From Desulfohalovibrio reitneri (lineage in GTDB: Bacteria; Desulfobacterota; Desulfovibrionia; Desulfovibrionales; Desulfovibrionaceae): DNA of 64,000 nucleotides. Shown one piece after another: positions 35,022 through 44,287 of this stretch. How positions within the stretch are numbered: the stretch's first letter is position 1; every line of letters begins with the position of its first letter. A model generated the notes under the pieces. The model saw only the letters and a list, made by a program, of their open reading frames with translations. It ran no database searches and had not been told where the DNA came from. The stretch is taken from assembly GCF_000711295.1 (NCBI RefSeq), contig NZ_JOMJ01000003.1:1623501-1687500 (forward strand), given 5' to 3'. The position numbers were made by a program, and so were the translations under genes.

Positions 35022-36062
35022 ATGGCGGAAACCCCGTTCAATTTCCTCATCGTCAGCGAGCGTTCCGGGAGCAACCTGTTTCTGCGGATCATGCACGCCA
35101 ACTCCGAGTGCCTGGGGGCCGCGCCCACCCACCTGCACCGCATCATGCACAACAACCGCTCCCGCTACGGCGACCTCGCCGACGACGCCGAGTGGCGGCG
35201 CATGGTGGCGGACTGCGCCGAGCTGATGCGCACCACCTTCATCCACTGGGAAAGCGGGGTGGACGAGGAAGACCTGCTCCGCCGTTGCCGCGAGCGCAAC
35301 CCCGCCGAGGTCATCCGCCGCATCTACGAGGCCGAAATGGAGCGCTACGGCAAGTCCAGCGTGCTCATCAAGGAGAACTGGTGCTACCGGCTGGTGCCCT
35401 TCCTCATGGCCAACTACCCGGACTGCCGGTTCGTGTTCATGGTCCGCGACCCCAGGGACATGGCCCTGTCCTGGAAGCGCATCACCTGGTGGATGGCGGG
35501 CAAGGAGGACCGGGGCATCCGGGGTGGGGCGAAGCTGTGGATGGAGAACCAGCGGGACTCCCTGGAGGTCTACTCCGCCCTGCGGGACACCGGGCGCATC
35601 GTGCTGCTGCGCTACGAAGACCTGCTGCGCCGGCCTGAAACGGAACTGCGCCGGGTGTGCGACACCCTGGGGCTTGCCTACGAGCCCGCCATGCTGGACT
35701 TCCACAAGTCGGACAAGGCGCGCGGCGACGCCGAGGCCAGCCAGGCCTTCCGTAACCTCTCCTCCCCCCTGAACCCTGAGAATTACGGAAAATTCGCCAC
35801 CCAACTGGACGAGGCCGAGGTGCGCTGGATCGAGCACGTCTGCGCCAGGGAAATGGAGATGCTGGGCTACTCCCCGGTCCACTCGACAAGCGATGACTTC
35901 GAAGAGCTTGACCGGCTGGTGGACGAAGTGGAGCGACGCGAGGCGGCAGAAAGCGAGGAAAAGGCCCGCGACCCGGAAGAGGACGCCAGGCGGCAGCGCC
36001 GCTTCGAGACCCTGAAGTCCATCTTCACCCGGCCCGAGATTCCCCTCTATCCGCCGGATTAA
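35022..36062 (+). CDS. Sulfotransferase-family protein
   Basis: The 346-residue protein has the PAPS loop VSERSGSNLFLRIMHANSE (residues 11-29) and the 3'-phosphate strand FVFMVRDPRDMALSWKRI (the RDPRD form typical of sulfotransferases). TGRIVLLRYEDLLRRPETEL is the helix that usually follows. The C-terminal 45 residues are acidic and helical. It ends the plus block, with its TAA overlapping the stop of asnB from the other strand. It would place sulfate on the glycan made by the operon, drawing on PAPS, though some members use other acceptors. It shares only the family with the sulfotransferase near 13 kb. Confidence 0.8.
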   Translation: MAETPFNFLIVSERSGSNLFLRIMHANSECLGAAPTHLHRIMHNNRSRYGDLADDAEWRRMVADCAELMRTTFIHWESGVDEEDLLRRCRERNPAEVIRRIYEAEMERYGKSSVLIKENWCYRLVPFLMANYPDCRFVFMVRDPRDMALSWKRITWWMAGKEDRGIRGGAKLWMENQRDSLEVYSALRDTGRIVLLRYEDLLRRPETELRRVCDTLGLAYEPAMLDFHKSDKARGDAEASQAFRNLSSPLNPENYGKFATQLDEAEVRWIEHVCAREMEMLGYSPVHSTSDDFEELDRLVDEVERREAAESEEKARDPEEDARRQRRFETLKSIFTRPEIPLYPPD

Positions 36063-37933
36063 CCCAGGAATCTGCGGCACCACTGCTCGAAGGAGAGCAG
36101 GGACCAGACCAGCAGGCGGCGGTTGGCCCGGCCTTCCAGGTGGTCCAGCACCAGCTCCAGGATGGCCTCGCGGTCGAAGTAGTCGAAGAGGCGGGTCTCG
36201 CGGGAAAAGAGGGTGCGGCGCACATAGCCGATGCTCTCGCCCCGGAACCAGCTGGCGTCCGGCCCGCTGAAGCCCTTTTTCACCCCGTTGGTGATGGAGT
36301 CGTCAACGTAGCGCGAGAGCATCCTGCGCAGCAGGATCTTGCCGTCGTTGGTGCGCTGGAAATACTTTTGCTGCTTGGGGCCGGGCTCGTTCTCGTCCAT
36401 GGCCGCCACCCGGGTCAGGTCGCGCAGCTTCATGCGCACCGGCACCTTCACCGCGAAATCCACCAGGTCGTTGTCCAGGAAGGGCACCCGGCTCTCCAGC
36501 CCGTGGGCCATGGAGAGCTTGTCCGCCACGTGCAGAAGGCCGTGCAGGAAGGTCTTGCACTCGAAGTACAGGGAGTGGTTGACGTAGTCCTCGGGCGAAC
36601 AGAGACGGCGGGCGTGACGCTTGAAAACGCCCTGGAAGATGTCGCGGGTCCAGACGTCCTTCACGCTGGGCCATACCGGGGCGAATACCTGGCGGATGAC
36701 CCGGTTGGGGATGAGGCGCTGCCAAAAGCCGTAGTAGGTGTCCACGTACTCGTCGAAGGAGGCGTTGGACACAGCGCGGTAGTACCGCCAGGGGTAGCCG
36801 CCGAACAGCTCGTCACCGCCGGTGCCGCAGAGCACCACCTTGACGTGCTCGGAGGCCATCTTGGCGGCATAGTAGTTGGGGTAGCTCTGCCCCACCCTGG
36901 GCTCGTCCAGGTGGTAGACGATGTCCGGCAGGCTTTGGATCATACGGGCGGAGTCCAACTCCGCCTCATGGTGCTCGGTGCGGAAAGCCCGGGCCATGCG
37001 CGCGGCCGCGCTGCGCTCGTCGAAGTCCAGCTCCTCGGCCCGGGCGGTGCCCAGGTCGAAGCCGCAGGTGAAGGTCCGCATGCCCGGCCGCTCGGAGGCG
37101 GCCACGGCGGTGATGGAGCCGGAGTCCATGCCCCCGGAGAGGTAGGAGCCCACGCCCACGTCGCTGACCAGCTGCCGCCGCACCGCCTGGCTGAACAGCC
37201 GATCCAGCTCCTCCACGTACTCCCGCTCGTCCGCCGCCCCGCACGGCTCGCTGAAGTCGAAGTCCCAGTACTGCCTCGGCCCGCCCAGGGGGCGTTCGCC
37301 GTTGGCCTTCATCCAGTGGCCCGGAGGCAGGGTCTCCACGTCGCGGAAAAGGGTGCGGCGGGAGAGGAAGTTCTGGAAGGTGAAGTATTCCAGCAGCCCC
37401 TCGTGGTCCAGCCGGGTCTCGAAGCCGGGGTGGGCGGCTATTGCCTTGGCCTCGGAGGCGAAGACGAACAGTTCCCCGCGCCGGGCCACGTACAGCGGCT
37501 TGACGCCGTAGCGGTCGCGGGCCAGCAGTATCTCCCGCCGGTCCTCGTCCCACAGGGCCAGCCCGAACATGCCGTTGAACCGCTCCAGGGCCTTCTCCCC
37601 CCAGTGGGTCAGGGCCTGCAGGACCACCTCGGTGTCCGAGTCGGAGCGAAAGGACGCGCCCTCGGCCTCCAGTTCGCGGCGCAGTTCGCGGAAGTTGTAG
37701 AGTTCCCCGTTGTACACCAGATGGCGGCGGCCGTCGGCCGAGGTCATGGGCTGGGCCGCCCGCTGGCTGAGGTCGATGATGGCCAGGCGGCGGTGGCCCA
37801 GGCCAACGTTGCCCTTGGCCAGCACCCCCTCGCCGTCCGGACCCCGGTGGGCCATGGTCCGGGTCATGGCCGCCAGCGTCTCCCGCGCCACCGGCCGCCC
37901 GGAAAAGTCGATCACTCCGACGATGCCGCACAT
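36059..37933 (-). CDS. asnB: Asparagine synthetase B-type amidotransferase
   Basis: The 624-residue protein has the Ntn-type glutaminase start MCGIVGVID (Cys 2 nucleophile, with RGPDGEGV and the LSQRAAQPM segment) and the synthetase P-loop SYLSGGMDSGSITAVAASE. Such proteins use glutamine and ATP to convert a carboxylate to an amide. Placed in a glycan operon, they often amidate sugar acids or peptides rather than make asparagine; that role here is inference. It is the last gene of the minus seven-gene block, 14 nt after the SPASM radical SAM gene. The stop overlaps the convergent sulfotransferase stop in TTAA. Confidence 0.88.
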   Translation of the reverse strand: MCGIVGVIDFSGRPVARETLAAMTRTMAHRGPDGEGVLAKGNVGLGHRRLAIIDLSQRAAQPMTSADGRRHLVYNGELYNFRELRRELEAEGASFRSDSDTEVVLQALTHWGEKALERFNGMFGLALWDEDRREILLARDRYGVKPLYVARRGELFVFASEAKAIAAHPGFETRLDHEGLLEYFTFQNFLSRRTLFRDVETLPPGHWMKANGERPLGGPRQYWDFDFSEPCGAADEREYVEELDRLFSQAVRRQLVSDVGVGSYLSGGMDSGSITAVAASERPGMRTFTCGFDLGTARAEELDFDERSAAARMARAFRTEHHEAELDSARMIQSLPDIVYHLDEPRVGQSYPNYYAAKMASEHVKVVLCGTGGDELFGGYPWRYYRAVSNASFDEYVDTYYGFWQRLIPNRVIRQVFAPVWPSVKDVWTRDIFQGVFKRHARRLCSPEDYVNHSLYFECKTFLHGLLHVADKLSMAHGLESRVPFLDNDLVDFAVKVPVRMKLRDLTRVAAMDENEPGPKQQKYFQRTNDGKILLRRMLSRYVDDSITNGVKKGFSGPDASWFRGESIGYVRRTLFSRETRLFDYFDREAILELVLDHLEGRANRRLLVWSLLSFEQWCRRFLG

Positions 37934-37947
37934 GCCAATCGCTCCGG

Positions 37948-39258
37948 CTACTTCCGCAGGCCGCCCGGCAGGGGGAAGTAGGTGGGGCGGCCGGTCTCTC
38001 CCGGCTTGACCTTCCGTTCATAGTGCCCCTTATTGGCGGCCAGAACCCGGTCCACCAGGACGCGCAGGCGGTCCAGGGGGGCCCGCAACTCCCCGGGCGC
38101 GCCCGCTCGGCCGAAATGGGCCAGGCAGCCAGCGGTCTTGTGCAGCTCCCCCTGCAGGAACCACTTGGCGGCCAGTTCGGCCAGCTCCGCGGCTGGCAGG
38201 GCCAGGAGGTTGCCGAAGCTGGGCTCCCGCTGGCCGAGCCCCATGGCGTAGCCCTGGGCGAGATTCTGGGGCGACTGGGAGTGGCAGTCCCAGAGATAGG
38301 AGCACTCCCGGCACAGGAAGCCGTCGTCCCAGAGTTCGCTGTACCGTCCGGCCGCCAGGCGGCGGCGGAAGCGGCGGAACGCCTCCCCGTTCCAGACCTC
38401 CATGAGGGACTGCTCGGTCAGGTCGCCGAGAAAGTGGTCCTCCCGGCATTCCTCCTGGCAGTAGGCCACCTTGCCGTCGTGGCAGATGGTCAGGGTGGAC
38501 CAGGGGTAGATGCAGCACGGCAGGGCCTCGTCCTCCACCGGCCCGGCCAGGTCCGGGTTGCCTTCCTCGATGTAGCCCTGCCAGTTGAACAGGGGGTGGA
38601 AGTCCATGGAGCAGAGGTTGGGGTAGTTCGCCCGGTAGTGCTCGAACACCTCCTCCATGCCCTCGTGCATGTTCGCCCGCTGCCGCACGTAGGCCACGTA
38701 GACGTGCGGCCGCGTCTCGGGATCGGCTTGGGCCATCCAGGCGTCGAGGGCCGCCAGGTTGTCTTGCACCCGGCCGTGGTGCTCCGTGCCGTGGATGGCG
38801 CGGTAGGTCTCGGGGCTCAGGGCGCTGATGGACAGCCCCAGGGAGTCCAGGTGCGGCATGAAGGCGTCCAGCTTGTCCGCCAGGGGCACGGTGGCGTTGC
38901 AGATGACCGCCACGTGGATGTCCGGCCGCCACGTCTTGAGATGGGCGATCATATCCGGCAGCCGCTTGTTGAGGAACGGCTCGCCCTGCTTGAGCAGATA
39001 GACCTTGCGCACCCCGGCGGGAAGCTGGTCCACGATGCGCTCGAACAGTTCCATGGGCATGTGGCCGCGCTCCGGCCGCATGGCCTCGTCGTGGGGGCAC
39101 ATCACGCAGCGGTTGCTGCAGATGTTGGTGGGGTTAATGTAGACCAGCCACGGCCCGGCCTCCACCGTCTCCCGGCCGCCGGCCCAGGCCATCAGGCGGG
39201 AGTTTTCGCATTCGGCCACCAGCCGTTCCAGTTCTCCGGATCCCTCGATATGGGACAT
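37948..39258 (-). CDS. Radical SAM/SPASM protein, canonical order
   Basis: The 436-residue protein has the radical SAM core motif CSNRCVMC (Cys 47, 51, 54) at the N-terminus, then a C-terminal SPASM domain: CCIYPWSTLTIC (248-259), AYCQEEC (267, 271) and the late CREC with a further Cys (316-325). This is the reverse of the domain order in the two radical SAM proteins of the plus block. SPASM proteins modify peptides or sugars with extra iron-sulfur clusters. It overlaps or abuts the FemAB-like gene (ATGA if the start is three codons earlier, at 39267). AAGGG precedes the chosen ATG. No precursor peptide gene is visible. Confidence 0.82.
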   Translation of the reverse strand: MSHIEGSGELERLVAECENSRLMAWAGGRETVEAGPWLVYINPTNICSNRCVMCPHDEAMRPERGHMPMELFERIVDQLPAGVRKVYLLKQGEPFLNKRLPDMIAHLKTWRPDIHVAVICNATVPLADKLDAFMPHLDSLGLSISALSPETYRAIHGTEHHGRVQDNLAALDAWMAQADPETRPHVYVAYVRQRANMHEGMEEVFEHYRANYPNLCSMDFHPLFNWQGYIEEGNPDLAGPVEDEALPCCIYPWSTLTICHDGKVAYCQEECREDHFLGDLTEQSLMEVWNGEAFRRFRRRLAAGRYSELWDDGFLCRECSYLWDCHSQSPQNLAQGYAMGLGQREPSFGNLLALPAAELAELAAKWFLQGELHKTAGCLAHFGRAGAPGELRAPLDRLRVLVDRVLAANKGHYERKVKPGETGRPTYFPLPGGLRK

Positions 39259-39263
39259 GGTCG

Positions 39264-40328
39264 TCATCCCTTGTTTTGCGCCAGTTGGTTGAAGGGCACC
39301 ACGAAAAACCAGGGGTAGGCCCGCTGGATTTCCTGCGGTGCGAGATGTAAGAGCGGTTCCGTGCGCTCCAGCAGCCAGGTGGAATAGGCGTAGGGCATGT
39401 CCCGCGCCCCCCACTTGCGCTTGAAACGGTAGACCCCGGTCTGGCTGGTCCAGGTGCCCCCCCAGTTCCAGTACGCCCGCCCCTCGAGGGCGGCGTCGGT
39501 CATGGCGCGGTGGATTAGCGGGCTCAGGGGCTGGGCGGAGCGGTGCTCCGCCGCCACGCAGGGCATGAAGTATTCCGCCACCCGGCCGTGCGAAAGCACC
39601 AGCAGGCCAGCGGCCAGCTCGCCGTCCCGATGGGCCAGATAGAGGCGGCAGTCGCGCCCGGGCTCCAGATGGCGGGCCACGGCGGCGGGAAAACCGTCCG
39701 GCTTGGCCAGCCCGCCGATGGCGGCCATGTTCTCGCGGTGAATGGCCTGCACCCGCTCCAGGTCCGCCGGGTCGTCGGAAATCCGGCACTCCACCCCGCT
39801 ATTGAACGCCTTGCGCACGTTGCGGCGGGCGGAACCCTCGTAGGCGGCGAAGAGCTTCTCCCCGGCGTCCTCCGCCCCGGCGGGCAGCGGGGTTATCTGG
39901 CCGATGCGCTCGTCGTGCAGCAGCCGCGAGCCGTGCTCCGCTTCCGGCAAACGTCCCCCGTCCAGCGGCGAGGGGATGGCCGTGGCCGCCGGGGAGCCGA
40001 TTTCCCGGCAGTGGGCCAGCATGGCCTCCACCAGGGCGGGCGCGGGGTCGGTGTCCTCGCCGATGCGGACCACACCGCCCACGCTGCCGAAAAAGGGCAG
40101 GGAGTTGAGCACCGGACCATACTCCGGATGGTCCAGGGCCAGGCAGGGCAGCGCCCCCAGGGTGCGGCCATGGCGGTCGCCGGCCAGGAAATAGAGCGGC
40201 TCCGCGCCGGTGAGGCCGGCCATGAGCCGGTGGTAGGCCGGGGCGTGGGTGGGCATGGCCAAGGGGGCCTCGGCGATCAGGTCCAGGTATTCCTCCGGGG
40301 CGGGACCGGTGTGCAGGTTCACGCGCAC
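39264..40328 (-). CDS. FemAB-like / GNAT acyltransferase
   Basis: The 354-residue protein resembles the FemAB/CelD-type GNAT superfamily: the central FAAYEGSARRNVRKAFNSG and the C-terminal GRAYWNWGGTWTSQTGVYRFKRKWG match such enzymes, which move an acyl or aminoacyl group to an amino sugar. No signal peptide is present. The GTG start follows GGAGGG by 7 nt and lies only 3 nt past the end of the fusion gene upstream, so it is cotranscribed with it. The acyl donor is unknown. In the context of an aminotransferase and a formyltransferase, an N-acylation of an amino sugar is plausible. Confidence 0.75.
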   Translation of the reverse strand: MRVNLHTGPAPEEYLDLIAEAPLAMPTHAPAYHRLMAGLTGAEPLYFLAGDRHGRTLGALPCLALDHPEYGPVLNSLPFFGSVGGVVRIGEDTDPAPALVEAMLAHCREIGSPAATAIPSPLDGGRLPEAEHGSRLLHDERIGQITPLPAGAEDAGEKLFAAYEGSARRNVRKAFNSGVECRISDDPADLERVQAIHRENMAAIGGLAKPDGFPAAVARHLEPGRDCRLYLAHRDGELAAGLLVLSHGRVAEYFMPCVAAEHRSAQPLSPLIHRAMTDAALEGRAYWNWGGTWTSQTGVYRFKRKWGARDMPYAYSTWLLERTEPLLHLAPQEIQRAYPWFFVVPFNQLAQNKG

Positions 40329-40331
40329 GCC

Positions 40332-42113
40332 TCAGCCCTCCCCGTCCGCGAAACGCTTGGGCAGAAGCGGCTCCCCCTTGGAGCGGGCCGCCTCCCAGAG
40401 GTGGTTGGACTCCCGCAGGTAGGCGTCCACCCGGCCCAGCCGCTCGGCCACCACCTCCCGCAGCACGTCCTGGGGCCGCATGCGGTGCCCGTTCATCCAC
40501 CACAGGGGATGGACGAGCAGTTGCAGCCTCGGCCAGCGCGCCCGGCGCAGGTCCTCCGCCGGGTCGCCCTCGCGCCAGACCGCGTTGCTCTCGCTGAGAT
40601 ACTTGCAGGCCGGGGGCATCCGGTCCGGCTGGTAGCCGCTGACATACGCCCCGCCCGGCTGGCGGCGCACCACCTCTGGACGGGGGTTGTGGAAGGTCAC
40701 GGCCCGGCGCGCGCCTACCGGCAGCAGCGAGTCCAACAAGTTCAGCTCCCGCTCCACGGCCCGGTCCAGGTCGCCGTCCGCTCCCGGGACCATGCGCTGA
40801 TCGAAATGGAGCCCCACGCCGTGCCCCAGTTCGGCTATCCCGCGCACCATGGCCGCGGTTTCTGGCTCAAGCAGATTGTAGAAGGCCCCCCGGGTAAGCA
40901 GGAAATAGGTCGCCCGCACCCCGCGCTCATGCTCCATGCGGGCCATCTCCAGGGCTCGGGCCACGGACTTGTCCACGTCGTGCCGCAGGAAAACCACCGG
41001 CTCCGCGCCGTCATCCGGCTCGTCCAGCGGGGCGAAGCGGTAGCCGCCCTCCAGCAGGGCGTCCAGCAGCCGCGCGTACATGGGGCGGGTGAAGGCCAGG
41101 CCCTCCTGCCCCTCTCCGGCGTGCATGGCCGCCAGCTTCTCCCAGCCGGGATTCTCCCGGCTCTCGAACACCCGGCCCTCCGCCGGACGCCAGCCGTCCG
41201 GGGCGTCCCAGTCCGTGACCAGGTAGCCCGCCCCGCCCGCGCAGACCGCCACGAAGGTCTCGTCCTCGAACACGGCCGCGATCTCCCCCGGCTCGAAGCC
41301 GGGAAAATCCAGCCGCGAGTCGAAGGGACGCCCGGCCCAGATGTTGACCCGCGAGCCGCCGCACAGGCTGAAGGCCCCGGGATAGGGGCGGCCCACGGCC
41401 CGCACCAGCCGGTCCACCCGCTCCAGGCTGTCCCGCCAGTCGATGACCCCGTCGCGGGGCTCCCGCTTGGGGTAGTAGGTGGGGGCCACGTCCGCGCGCT
41501 GCGGGGTCAGTTGGGCCGTTCCGTCCAGCAGAGCGGGCAGGTGGCGCAGCAGCAGGCGGATCTGGCTGAGGGTATTCTTGTGGCGCAGGCTGCGGATGTC
41601 GTCGCGCGGGGTGATGTCGAAGCGCAGGGTGCCCACCACCTCGCCCGAGTCCACCCCGGCGTCGTAGCGGAAGAGCGAGGTGTGGAAGGTGTCGCGGCCC
41701 TCAATGATGGCCCAGTTCATGGGCGAGCGGCCGCGCCCCCGGGGCAGGTCGTCGGCGCTGCCGTGCATGCCGAAGGCCCCGATGGACAGCCCCCGCAGGA
41801 ACCACTCGGGAAAGATGCGCTGCCACCCGGCGGAAACCAGCAGGTCGATGCGCAGGCCGGAGAACAGGTCGCGGTCCGCCTGGCTGGAAAAGGCGTAGGT
41901 GGCCGGTCGGATGACTTCCACGCCCAATTCCTCCGCCAGGGGCGCGAGGTCGGTGTAGTCGGCGATGCCCGCCGCGTGCTCCGGCCCCATGTGCAGCAGG
42001 TAGGCGGGCCTGTGCCCGGCGGCGCACAGGGCGCGCAGCACGTCGGCGCAGGTGGTCTGGTTTCCGGCCACGGCCAGCACCGGGCCCCCGCCGCTCCCGC
42101 CAGCGCCGCTCAC
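40332..42113 (-). CDS. Formyltransferase-polysaccharide deacetylase fusion
   Basis: The 593-residue protein joins two enzyme modules. Residues about 10-300 are a 10-formyltetrahydrofolate-type formyltransferase: LLVSAGWQRIFPEWFL, GMHGSADDLPRGRGRSPMNW (His 117) and GVDSGEVV (Asp 155), followed by its small C-terminal subdomain. Residues about 370-590 look like a NodB/CE4-type deacetylase: FLRHDVDKS (378-383), ATYFLLTRGAFYN and GHGVGLHFD (430-438) provide the expected Asp and His metal ligands. Together they could remove an N-acetyl group and replace it with N-formyl. The Asn before the catalytic His is Gly. The GTG start overlaps the aminotransferase stop (GTGA). Confidence 0.78.
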   Translation of the reverse strand: MSGAGGSGGGPVLAVAGNQTTCADVLRALCAAGHRPAYLLHMGPEHAAGIADYTDLAPLAEELGVEVIRPATYAFSSQADRDLFSGLRIDLLVSAGWQRIFPEWFLRGLSIGAFGMHGSADDLPRGRGRSPMNWAIIEGRDTFHTSLFRYDAGVDSGEVVGTLRFDITPRDDIRSLRHKNTLSQIRLLLRHLPALLDGTAQLTPQRADVAPTYYPKREPRDGVIDWRDSLERVDRLVRAVGRPYPGAFSLCGGSRVNIWAGRPFDSRLDFPGFEPGEIAAVFEDETFVAVCAGGAGYLVTDWDAPDGWRPAEGRVFESRENPGWEKLAAMHAGEGQEGLAFTRPMYARLLDALLEGGYRFAPLDEPDDGAEPVVFLRHDVDKSVARALEMARMEHERGVRATYFLLTRGAFYNLLEPETAAMVRGIAELGHGVGLHFDQRMVPGADGDLDRAVERELNLLDSLLPVGARRAVTFHNPRPEVVRRQPGGAYVSGYQPDRMPPACKYLSESNAVWREGDPAEDLRRARWPRLQLLVHPLWWMNGHRMRPQDVLREVVAERLGRVDAYLRESNHLWEAARSKGEPLLPKRFADGEG

Positions 42114-43216
42114 CGCACGGCCTCCCGAAGGGTGTCCACCACCCGCTCCTGCTCGGCATTGGTCATGGTGTGGTAGAGGGGCAGGGCCAGGGCGCGGTCG
42201 AAGGCCTTCCGGCTGCCCGCCATGTCCCCTTCCAGCCGCACGGCCGGGTTGTCGCGGAAGGCGGGCTGGAGGTGCAGGGCGTAGGTGCCTATCTGCGCCT
42301 CCACCCCGGCGGCGCGCATGCGGGCCATGACCTCGTCGCGGCCGTCCACCAGCACGCAGAAGGTCTGCCAGGAGTGCTCGCCGCCAGGGGTGGTCGCGGG
42401 CAGCTCCACGCCCCCGGTTCCGGCCAGCAGGTCCAGATAGTTGGCGGCCAGCTCCCTCCGGCGGGCCAGCAGCTCGTCCACCATCTCCATCTGGGCCACC
42501 CCCAGGGCGGCTTGCAGGTTGGACAGCTTGAGGTTGCTGCCCACCATGGAAAAGACCGCGCCCTCGCGGGAGGCCTCGCGGTCCAGGCCAAAATGCTTGA
42601 AGGAATCCATCCAGGCGTCCAGGTCCGGGTCGTTGGTGGTCACCAAGCCCCCCTCGCCCGTGGTCACGAACTTGCGCGGGTGGAGGGAAAAGACCGAGAC
42701 GTCGGCCATGCCGCCCACCTTTTCGCCCCCGAACGAAGCGCCCAAGGCGCAGGCCGCGTCCTCCAGCACGCGCAGGCCGTGCTCGCGGGCCACCGCGTCC
42801 ACCCGCCCCTGATCCACGGGGTTGCCGAACAGGGAGACCGGCAACAGGGCTTTGGTGCGCGGGGTTACGGCCCGCTCCATGGCCTCGTAGTCGATGAGCA
42901 TGGTGGCCGGGTCCACGTCCACGACGACCGGGGTGGCCCCCACCAGGGCCACGGCCGTGGCCGTGGCCGGGTAGGTGTAGTCAGGCAAAACCACCTCGTC
43001 CCCCGGGCCCACGCCCAGCGCCCGCAGGGCCATCTCCAGCCCGGTGGTGCAGGAGGTCACGGCCAGGGCGTGGCCCACGCCCAGCCAGTCGCAACACATT
43101 TCCTCGAAGCGGCGGGTGACCGGGCCTTCGGTGAGGTAGCCGGAGTCCAGCACCTCCAAGACCTTCTCCCGCGCCGCGTCCGGCAGGTGGGGGCGCATGA
43201 GGGGGATGTCGTACAT
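42110..43216 (-). CDS. DegT/DnrJ/EryC1-family sugar aminotransferase
   Basis: The 368-residue enzyme is a PLP-dependent aminotransferase of the nucleotide-sugar type: SCTTGLEMALRALG binds phosphate, LEDAACALGASFGG carries the conserved Asp 153, and SLHPRKFVTTGEGG has the Schiff-base Lys 182. It would add an amino group to a keto sugar made by an epimerase or dehydratase. It ends by GTGA overlap into the formyltransferase gene and begins 5 nt after the epimerase stop. AGGA is upstream of the ATG. Product is probably a UDP- or CMP-linked amino sugar; the exact position of the amino group is unknown. Confidence 0.9.
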   Translation of the reverse strand: MYDIPLMRPHLPDAAREKVLEVLDSGYLTEGPVTRRFEEMCCDWLGVGHALAVTSCTTGLEMALRALGVGPGDEVVLPDYTYPATATAVALVGATPVVVDVDPATMLIDYEAMERAVTPRTKALLPVSLFGNPVDQGRVDAVAREHGLRVLEDAACALGASFGGEKVGGMADVSVFSLHPRKFVTTGEGGLVTTNDPDLDAWMDSFKHFGLDREASREGAVFSMVGSNLKLSNLQAALGVAQMEMVDELLARRRELAANYLDLLAGTGGVELPATTPGGEHSWQTFCVLVDGRDEVMARMRAAGVEAQIGTYALHLQPAFRDNPAVRLEGDMAGSRKAFDRALALPLYHTMTNAEQERVVDTLREAVR

Positions 43217-43221
43217 GCTTC

Positions 43222-44226
43222 CTACCTGGCCTTTTTCCGGCGGCGCTCCACCTCGGCCTTGTGGCTGTCGCGCCACTCAATGAGCCGCTTGAGCCCCTCG
43301 CGCAGCTCCACCTTGGCGTCGAAGCCCAGCTCCAGCGAGGCCTTGGCCGGGTCGCCCACCCGGTTCTTGACGAAGGTCAGCCCGCCCGGCTTGTACTCGA
43401 TCTCCAGGTCCGAGCCGGTGACTTCCAGAATCAGCTCGGCCAGCTCCTTGATGGTGGTCTTGGCCCCGGTGCCCACGTTGTAGAAGGCGTCGGTGGCGTC
43501 CGCCCGCATGGCCCGCAGATTGGCATTGGCGCAGTCGCCCACGTAGACGAAGTCGTAGGCCTGGGAGCCGTCGCCGTAGACCACCGGGGGCAGCCCCTGG
43601 TCCAGCCGGTCCAGTATCTTCATGATGACCGCGATGTAGGTGCCCTGGTAGTCCTGGCGCGGACCGTAGACGTTCATGTAGCGCAGCCCGGCGTAGTCGA
43701 AGTGCTTGTCCGTGTCCTTGTAGCGGTGGTGCAGGGCGCGGCACATGTGCTCGCCCGCGATCTTGGTGGCGCCGTAGAAATTGGTGTTGTTGTAGGGGTG
43801 GTCCTCGGTCATGGGCTCCTCCACCGCGTCGCCGTACACGCTGGCGGAGGAGGAGTAGACCAGCCGCCTGACCCCGTTGTTGAGCATGGCCTCCAACACG
43901 TTGAAGGTCCCGGCGATGTTCACCTCGAAGGCGGAGCGCGGGAAGTCGTAGCAGTGCAAAAGCCACATGGCCGCCAGGTGGAACACCCCGTCCACGCCCT
44001 TCATGGCGGCGTTCAGGATGTCCGTGTGCAGCAGTTCGCCGCCCAGCTCGTAGATCTTCACGCGCGGGTCGCTGAGCGCCTCGGCCAGGTTTTCCTCGCT
44101 GCCGCGGGTGAAGTTGTCGAAGACGCGGATTTCGGCCACGTCCTCTTGGCGCAGCTGGTCCACCAGATGGGAGCCGATGAAGCCAGCGCCGCCGATGACC
44201 AGGAAGGTCTTGCCTCGAATGTCCAT
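43222..44226 (-). CDS. NAD-dependent nucleotide-sugar epimerase/dehydratase
   Basis: The 334-residue extended SDR has the glycine motif VIGGAGFIGSH (residues 10-20), a YSSSASVYG strand and the catalytic Tyr-x3-Lys in NFYGATK, with RYMNVYGPRQDYQGTYI downstream as in UDP-glucose 4-epimerases and related enzymes. It likely prepares the keto or epimerised sugar for the aminotransferase immediately after it. The ATG chosen has AAAGGACAGGGC upstream; an upstream ATG at 44253 is possible. It follows the glycosyltransferase gene with a 61-nt gap. Whether it is a 4-epimerase, a 4,6-dehydratase or another reaction is not decided by the sequence seen. Confidence 0.88.
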   Translation of the reverse strand: MDIRGKTFLVIGGAGFIGSHLVDQLRQEDVAEIRVFDNFTRGSEENLAEALSDPRVKIYELGGELLHTDILNAAMKGVDGVFHLAAMWLLHCYDFPRSAFEVNIAGTFNVLEAMLNNGVRRLVYSSSASVYGDAVEEPMTEDHPYNNTNFYGATKIAGEHMCRALHHRYKDTDKHFDYAGLRYMNVYGPRQDYQGTYIAVIMKILDRLDQGLPPVVYGDGSQAYDFVYVGDCANANLRAMRADATDAFYNVGTGAKTTIKELAELILEVTGSDLEIEYKPGGLTFVKNRVGDPAKASLELGFDAKVELREGLKRLIEWRDSHKAEVERRRKKAR

Positions 44227-44287
44227 GCCCTGTCCTTTGCTCGGGGCGCTCACGCCCCGGTGTGTGGTTGATGCTGCTTGCTTGGCC

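Follow-up and report, generated by a model that had tools for sequence, protein, structure and literature searches.

A formyltransferase fused to a NodB-type deacetylase, and a recurrent pairing of the two, point to a putative acetyl-to-formyl exchange on amino sugars

An open reading frame in the 64,000-nucleotide stretch of Desulfohalovibrio reitneri DNA analysed here (the window) joins a formyltransferase (FT) half to a NodB-type deacetylase half in one protein. By a slight balance of probability, we consider this fusion to be a cytosolic bifunctional enzyme that replaces N-acetyl by N-formyl at a single nitrogen of an activated amino sugar, the C-terminal half probably stripping the acetyl group from the sugar nitrogen and the N-terminal half adding a formyl group there. 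A broader proposal, which we put at rather under even chances, is that deacetylase and FT form a recurrent cassette, which swaps acetyl for formyl where the cell can supply a sugar nitrogen only with its acetyl group, C2 of UDP-GlcNAc-derived sugars being one example. On this view the cassette arose several times, drawing on at least four kinds of deacetylase and several FT lineages; it is fused here, and it is present also in a huge-phage genome and in viral-collection contigs. FT, CE4 and PIG-L are known families; we found no description in the open-access literature of an FT::NodB fusion or of a deacetylase-FT pairing as a recurrent module, and both seem to be undescribed there.

The gene is unbroken, starts with GTG and lies among sugar-modification genes. 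An earlier reading of the sequence alone had placed it between an aminotransferase gene and a FemAB-like acyltransferase gene, and this order is confirmed: the GTG start overlaps the stop of the upstream DegT gene by 4 nt (GTGA, 42110-42113), and 3 nt separate the fusion gene from the GNAT/FemAB-like gene downstream. The radical SAM/SPASM protein of the operon (37948-39276) scores above cut-off with no NCBIfam equivalog. The features, in window coordinates, are as follows.

40332-42113, minus strand: FT::NodB fusion gene, 593 aa; unbroken reading frame with an ortholog at 61% identity in another genus (G682).
41205-42077, minus strand: FT half (residues about 13-303) with N and C subdomains; both PF00551 and PF02911 exceed the cut-off, and Foldseek matches are to ArnA, Fmt and WbkC.
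41712-41771, minus strand: FT active-site loop G115-M-H117-GSADDLPRGRGRSPMNW134, with two extra residues in alignments.
41649-41651, minus strand: FT triad residue Asp155; aligned with ArnA and invariant in the FT subfamily alignment.
40374-41102, minus strand: NodB/CE4-like deacetylase half, residues about 338-580, from an AlphaFold model and fold search.
40971-40982, minus strand: HDVD motif, residues 378-381, with D379 the putative base and D381 a putative metal ligand; all 15 homologues keep H and the first D, and D381 is D or E.
40806-40808, minus strand: His436, putative metal ligand and the only His at the canonical H-x3-H site; invariant, with Arg440 at i+4.
40689-40691, minus strand: His475, candidate second metal His; invariant.
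40509-40511, minus strand: His535 (LxHP motif), candidate catalytic acid; invariant.
42110-43216, minus strand: DegT-type sugar aminotransferase, cassette core; PF01041 at 361 bits, 58-62% identical in loci L185, L187, L089 and L087.
43222-44253, minus strand: SDR epimerase/dehydratase, cassette core; PF01370, 64-83% identical in L185, L089, L088 and L187.
36059-37933, minus strand: AsnB-like glutamine amidotransferase, cassette core; PF00733 at 301 bits, directly 3' of the fusion in G682.
39264-40328, minus strand: GNAT/FemAB-like acyltransferase, not conserved with the fusion; PF13480, absent from the G682 locus.
37948-39276, minus strand: radical SAM/SPASM protein, not conserved with the fusion; PF04055 and PF13186, absent from the G682 locus.

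A search for the fusion in other genomes, as the sequence-only reading had proposed, found it in a second genus of the same family (G682) at 61% identity over 566 aa; the arrangement is therefore neither a sequencing artefact nor unique to the window genome. There the order is an epimerase gene (83%), a DegT gene (61%), the fusion and, directly after it, an AsnB-like gene (62%), so that, judged by shared gene order, the conserved cassette is epimerase, DegT, fusion and AsnB-like amidotransferase. The FemAB-like gene, a true neighbour in the window, has no counterpart at the G682 fusion locus, where an AsnB-type gene stands instead; as the radical SAM gene is also absent from that locus, both are ruled out as parts of the system. 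All or part of the epimerase, DegT and AsnB cassette recurs in five further genomes (G027, G351, G037, G466 and G013). In G351, where the cassette is 57-64% identical, the fusion's place is held by an FT gene, a WbmS-like deacetylase gene and another FT gene, so that the deacetylase has been exchanged for a non-homologous one and the FTs, too, are others. No full fusion was found in plasmids, and the sole match in a full-protein scan of genome_contigs was a broken relative (L005) on an Armatimonadota contig, beside transposase genes.

A profile search of both halves placed the FT half in two Pfam domains, PF00551 (37.9 bits against a cut-off of 26.1; residues 66-180) and PF02911 (45.1 against 21.1; residues 219-294), while the other half gave no Pfam or NCBIfam match. 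NCBIfam equivalog models of the FT half stay below cut-off (ArnA 119 against 777, Fmt 76 against 201.5, NF005414 136 against 316 bits). Foldseek matches it to ArnA, Fmt and WbkC, and the FT domain of ArnA is its nearest solved structure. The catalytic triad of the FT family is Asn-His-Asp. His117 and Asp155, the residues named in the earlier reading, occupy the positions of ArnA's catalytic His and Asp in the alignment; the Asn of the Asn-x-His...Asp triad is missing, a change overlooked in that reading, ArnA Asn102 being Gly115 in the fusion, Gly across its subfamily and Thr in L005, and two residues are inserted after HGS. This is not a sign of damage: a supported clade (100/100), whose very divergent members come from bacteria and viral-collection contigs, shares the G-x-H-(G/A)-S loop and the wider gap between it and a G-(R/K)-G-R stretch. 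The invariance of His117, Asp155 and about 20 other positions among these very divergent members indicates a site under selection. Every subfamily member has Gln98 (in GWQR), a residue found in 0 of 107 FTs with the N-x-H motif; that it compensates for the absent Asn is a guess. We had considered Gly-for-Asn as a marker of partnership with a deacetylase, an idea weakened by a G-x-H FT that has no deacetylase (L158) and by N-x-H FTs that do (L022 and the second FT of L069/L187).

For the C-terminal half, taken alone, neither Pfam nor NCBIfam nor the PDB yields a sequence match; there is none to PF01522 (Polysacc_deac_1) up to E 10, and none to PF22537; one deacetylase homologue (L078) passes PF01522 (27.0 against 23.1 bits). 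Because a full-length AlphaFold model had low confidence in this half, we modelled it by itself, obtaining a NodB fold (mean pLDDT 73.7, pTM 0.73). In Foldseek searches with this model CE4 deacetylases rank first (best E 8.9e-6), and VIA-align gives CE4 deacetylases Z scores from 12.3 to about 9 over 150-189 residues; ArnD (8t0j) at Z 10.4 and WbmS at Z 10.5 fall in a band common to many deacetylases. Matches of the deacetylase profile to ArnD (probability 30%) and, by hhalign, to single CE4 proteins are weak. On its model, then, the C-terminal half has a NodB/CE4-like deacetylase fold, and the earlier proposal of an FT and a NodB-type deacetylase in one protein is borne out, by Pfam for one half and by fold match for the other.

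Fifteen deacetylase homologues share an invariant R-H-D-x-D-x-S, a single H in GLH, the H of (S/T)xH, and LxHP; H436 and D379 with its surrounding R-H-D are unchanged throughout, and the second Asp (D381) is D or E once more distant viral-contig members are included. Of the two motifs first read in this half, HDVD (378-381) and HFD (436-438), the former and H436 lie where they were placed, but Asp438 is not conserved. Only the first His of the usual H-x3-H metal motif is present (H436), Arg440 occupying the second position. With D381 (D/E) and H436 in place, and His475 and His535 invariant, the last two may complete the metal or catalytic site in place of the second His, and a putative metal triad is plausible.

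Outside the fusion, counterparts of the two halves are encoded side by side. Among 14 fetched non-fused loci of the FT subfamily, a deacetylase lies beside the FT, or in one case a gene away, in 13; the exception (L005), a broken FT gene beside a transposase, is uninformative about partners. The partner belongs to the window's deacetylase family in ten loci, and is a canonical CE4 protein (PF01522; L103), a WbmS-like protein (PF22537; L170) and a PIG-L protein (PF02585; L084) in one each; PIG-L has a fold unrelated to CE4/NodB. A search of viral_contigs with an FT-only profile returned ten contigs, all ten with a deacetylase adjoining the FT (one gene away in L174). Of the 107 N-x-H FTs, mostly ArnA, ArnA-like or tRNA formyltransferases, two have a non-ArnD deacetylase neighbour and 41 an ArnD-like one. 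Neighbouring deacetylases were called by profile searches, an earlier regex screen having taken GT2 'VDDGS' motifs for CE4; the pairing counts are not independent, given shared ancestry and the recovery of some loci with full-length or deacetylase queries, and we therefore attach no probability to them.

The pairs take several forms. Deacetylase and FT are overlapping neighbour genes in G164 and G156, and in a 635 kb huge-phage record (LR745206; L103) a dehydratase gene, a canonical CE4 gene and the FT gene follow one another, overlapping. That phage locus (LR745206.1, 424018-440866) encodes a UDP-GlcNAc 4,6-dehydratase-like protein, the canonical CE4, the Asn-less FT, a methyltransferase, glycosyltransferases and an RmlD-like reductase. 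FTs of other lineages have PIG-L partners in L049, L054, L105 and a Leisingera plasmid (L079), a partner from the window's deacetylase family in L022, and a WbmS-like deacetylase directly before the FT in L186 and L187. In these last two loci (G185:C6:642000-656000 and G351:C50:96000-108000, respectively) the one WbmS-like gene lies between two different FT genes, directly or with a glycosyltransferase intervening, which suggests sugars with two formylated nitrogens. DegT genes lie near most FT-deacetylase pairs, and a short way downstream of the deacetylase gene WbqC-family genes turn up repeatedly (L018/L100, L022/L089, L087 and L076). Taken together, the FT-deacetylase pairing points to a recurrent putative acetyl-to-formyl exchange.

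The direction of the reaction is addressed by an asymmetry: FTs of this subfamily almost always have a deacetylase with them, yet the deacetylase often occurs without an FT. Loci of the latter sort include the sister cassettes of G037, G466 and G013 (L087, L088 and L100) and six plasmid loci carrying a deacetylase of the window's family (L073-L078). The plasmids come from Haloprofundus, Halobaculum, Sphingomonas, Azospirillum, Halorientalis and Haloarcula; their deacetylase homologues are mostly annotated as hypothetical, and the glycan loci around them also encode DegT, DapH/LpxD-like acyltransferase or acetamidino-modification proteins. In G164 and G156 the order is acetyltransferase, deacetylase, FT, oxidoreductase and epimerase, and G178 has the same order with a SAM methyltransferase replacing the FT, suggesting that the capping step after deacetylation is exchangeable. 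The methyltransferase gene (at 7722-8501 of L086, G178:C16:68000-82500) occupies exactly the FT's place in the sister species. Because the FT-less and methyltransferase loci offer no local formyl group, they argue against an ArnD-type deformylase there, and these two gene-order comparisons, the FT-less deacetylase loci and the methyltransferase swap, favour deacetylation followed by formylation over formylation followed by deformylation.

In the mechanism we propose, the NodB-type half would remove the acetyl from a pre-existing acetamido group; judging from the invariant residues and the fold, D381, H436 and probably H475 would bind the metal, D379 would serve as base and H535 would serve as acid. 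The ArnA-like half would then transfer a formyl group from 10-formyl-THF to the freed amine through H117 and D155, as homology predicts. The donor, 10-formyl-THF, is cytosolic, and so both halves should be too. The substrate would be a nucleotide-linked or lipid-linked sugar made by the epimerase/DegT/AsnB cassette, and the simplest candidate for the nitrogen is that of the N-acetyl group at C2 of a UDP-GlcNAc-derived sugar, the position being a guess; the product would probably be a surface-polysaccharide residue of the formamido uronamide type, the uronamide being suggested by the AsnB-like gene. An amine made by DegT could accept the formyl group as it is, so that the need for a deacetylase suggests a different nitrogen, one that already bears an acetyl group on arrival. 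We infer both activities, their order, the shared nitrogen and the C2 position. Several observations weigh against the exchange: the FT half lacks the catalytic Asn (G115), and position i+4 of the deacetylase's metal motif is not a His; DegT supplies an amine as well, so the halves might act on different nitrogens; and ArnA/ArnD is a precedent for an FT beside a CE4 enzyme performing formylation and then deformylation. A weak point, too, is L173, where GMD-like and DegT genes beside the FT-deacetylase pair suggest GDP-perosamine, a sugar that carries no acetyl group. The deacetylate-then-formylate logic of the sequence-only reading is thus the one best supported by comparative evidence (13 of 14 loci, four deacetylase kinds, FT-less loci), though with an FT without its triad Asn and a deacetylase with one His at H-x3-H.

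An alternative that we regard as unlikely, though worth serious weight, is that the halves act on different nitrogens of the same molecule, the FT half formylating the DegT amine and the deacetylase opening another acetamido group that is left free or otherwise substituted. Known sugar N-formyltransferases act on a DegT-made amine, and the DegT gene directly upstream overlaps the fusion, as DegT genes also lie near most pairs; a GNAT acyltransferase gene comes next in the window, and the two FTs around one deacetylase in L186/L187 allow that more than one nitrogen is formylated in some loci. Yet for a DegT amine, DegT and FT alone would be enough, deacetylase-FT adjacency is seen repeatedly, in several FT lineages and with four kinds of deacetylase, and L186/L187 have an FT directly abutting the deacetylase besides the one nearer DegT. 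WbkC, FdtF, WlaRD, PseJ and WbtJ, sugar N-formyltransferases acting after DegT, resemble the window protein in FT fold, sugar locus and a nearby DegT gene; we know of no dedicated deacetylase partner for any of them, whereas in the window's subfamily the deacetylase is fused or adjacent.

Less probable again is protection and deprotection in the manner of ArnA and ArnD, a known FT/CE4 pair of opposite logic to the exchange, in which the FT half would formylate the DegT amine and the NodB half later deformylate the lipid-linked sugar. ArnA (UDP-Ara4N formyltransferase/UDP-glucuronate decarboxylase) is likewise a two-domain fusion beside a CE4 enzyme (the ArnD deformylase) and a DegT gene, and the order DegT, FT, CE4 resembles arnB-arnC-arnA-arnD; ArnA is the nearest solved FT, the deacetylase model aligns with ArnD at Z 10.4, and the ArnD-like neighbours at 41 of 107 N-x-H FT loci also speak for this scheme. 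In the window, however, the partner domain is a NodB domain rather than a dehydrogenase, the FT lacks the triad Asn, and the ArnD profile match is weak (probability 30%). Moreover, with both activities in a single protein a futile cycle would be favoured, PIG-L deacetylases stand in for the NodB half in related loci, and the deacetylase occurs in FT-less sister cassettes or beside a methyltransferase replacing the FT. A search of the window's own genome for ArnD came back empty, which by itself shows little. It is improbable that the FT half is no longer a formyltransferase, transferring another one-carbon unit or merely binding folate: the Gly115 (Thr in L005) that replaces ArnA N102 and a Gln98 seen in none of the 107 N-x-H FTs would fit such a change, but the invariance of His117, Asp155 and about 20 more positions marks a site under selection, Gln98 could take the role of Asn, and other G-x-H FTs exist in similar loci.

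Other NodB-fold and deacetylase systems help to place the proposed exchange enzyme. WbmS-like deacetylases of O-antigen loci (PF22537; Bordetella WbmS, PDB 3hft) share the NodB fold, the sugar locus and F/H-D-x-D, and the member in L170 adjoins an FT of the window's subfamily; the window half differs in matching no PF22537 profile and in motif details. Chitin and peptidoglycan deacetylases of the CE4/NodB family share the fold and the HDxD, H and H residues, whereas the window half has a single His at the metal motif and, being fused to a folate enzyme, must be cytosolic. The adjacent FT and PIG-L genes of the Leisingera plasmid (L079) and of L084, L049, L054 and L105 offer the same FT/N-deacetylase pairing in a sugar locus, with an unrelated deacetylase fold and unfused genes.

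To our knowledge, the sugar N-formyltransferases characterized so far modify amines that aminotransferases have placed at C3 or C4 (or C7 of nonulosonates), and the biosynthesis of C2-formamido sugars, such as the GalNFmA of Pseudomonas aeruginosa O6, is not settled. One such C2 N-formyl sugar, GalNFmA (GalN(formyl)A), occurs with a carboxamide in the P. aeruginosa O6 O-antigen (PMC10609480), and the O6 sugars would in principle fit the type of product proposed here. The Asn-less FT subfamily also calls into question the need for Asn in the Asn-His-Asp triad. If the deacetylase-FT module is real, it would provide a general route to C2-formamido sugars, explain many unannotated proteins of glycan loci and supply a genome signature for N-formyl sugars.
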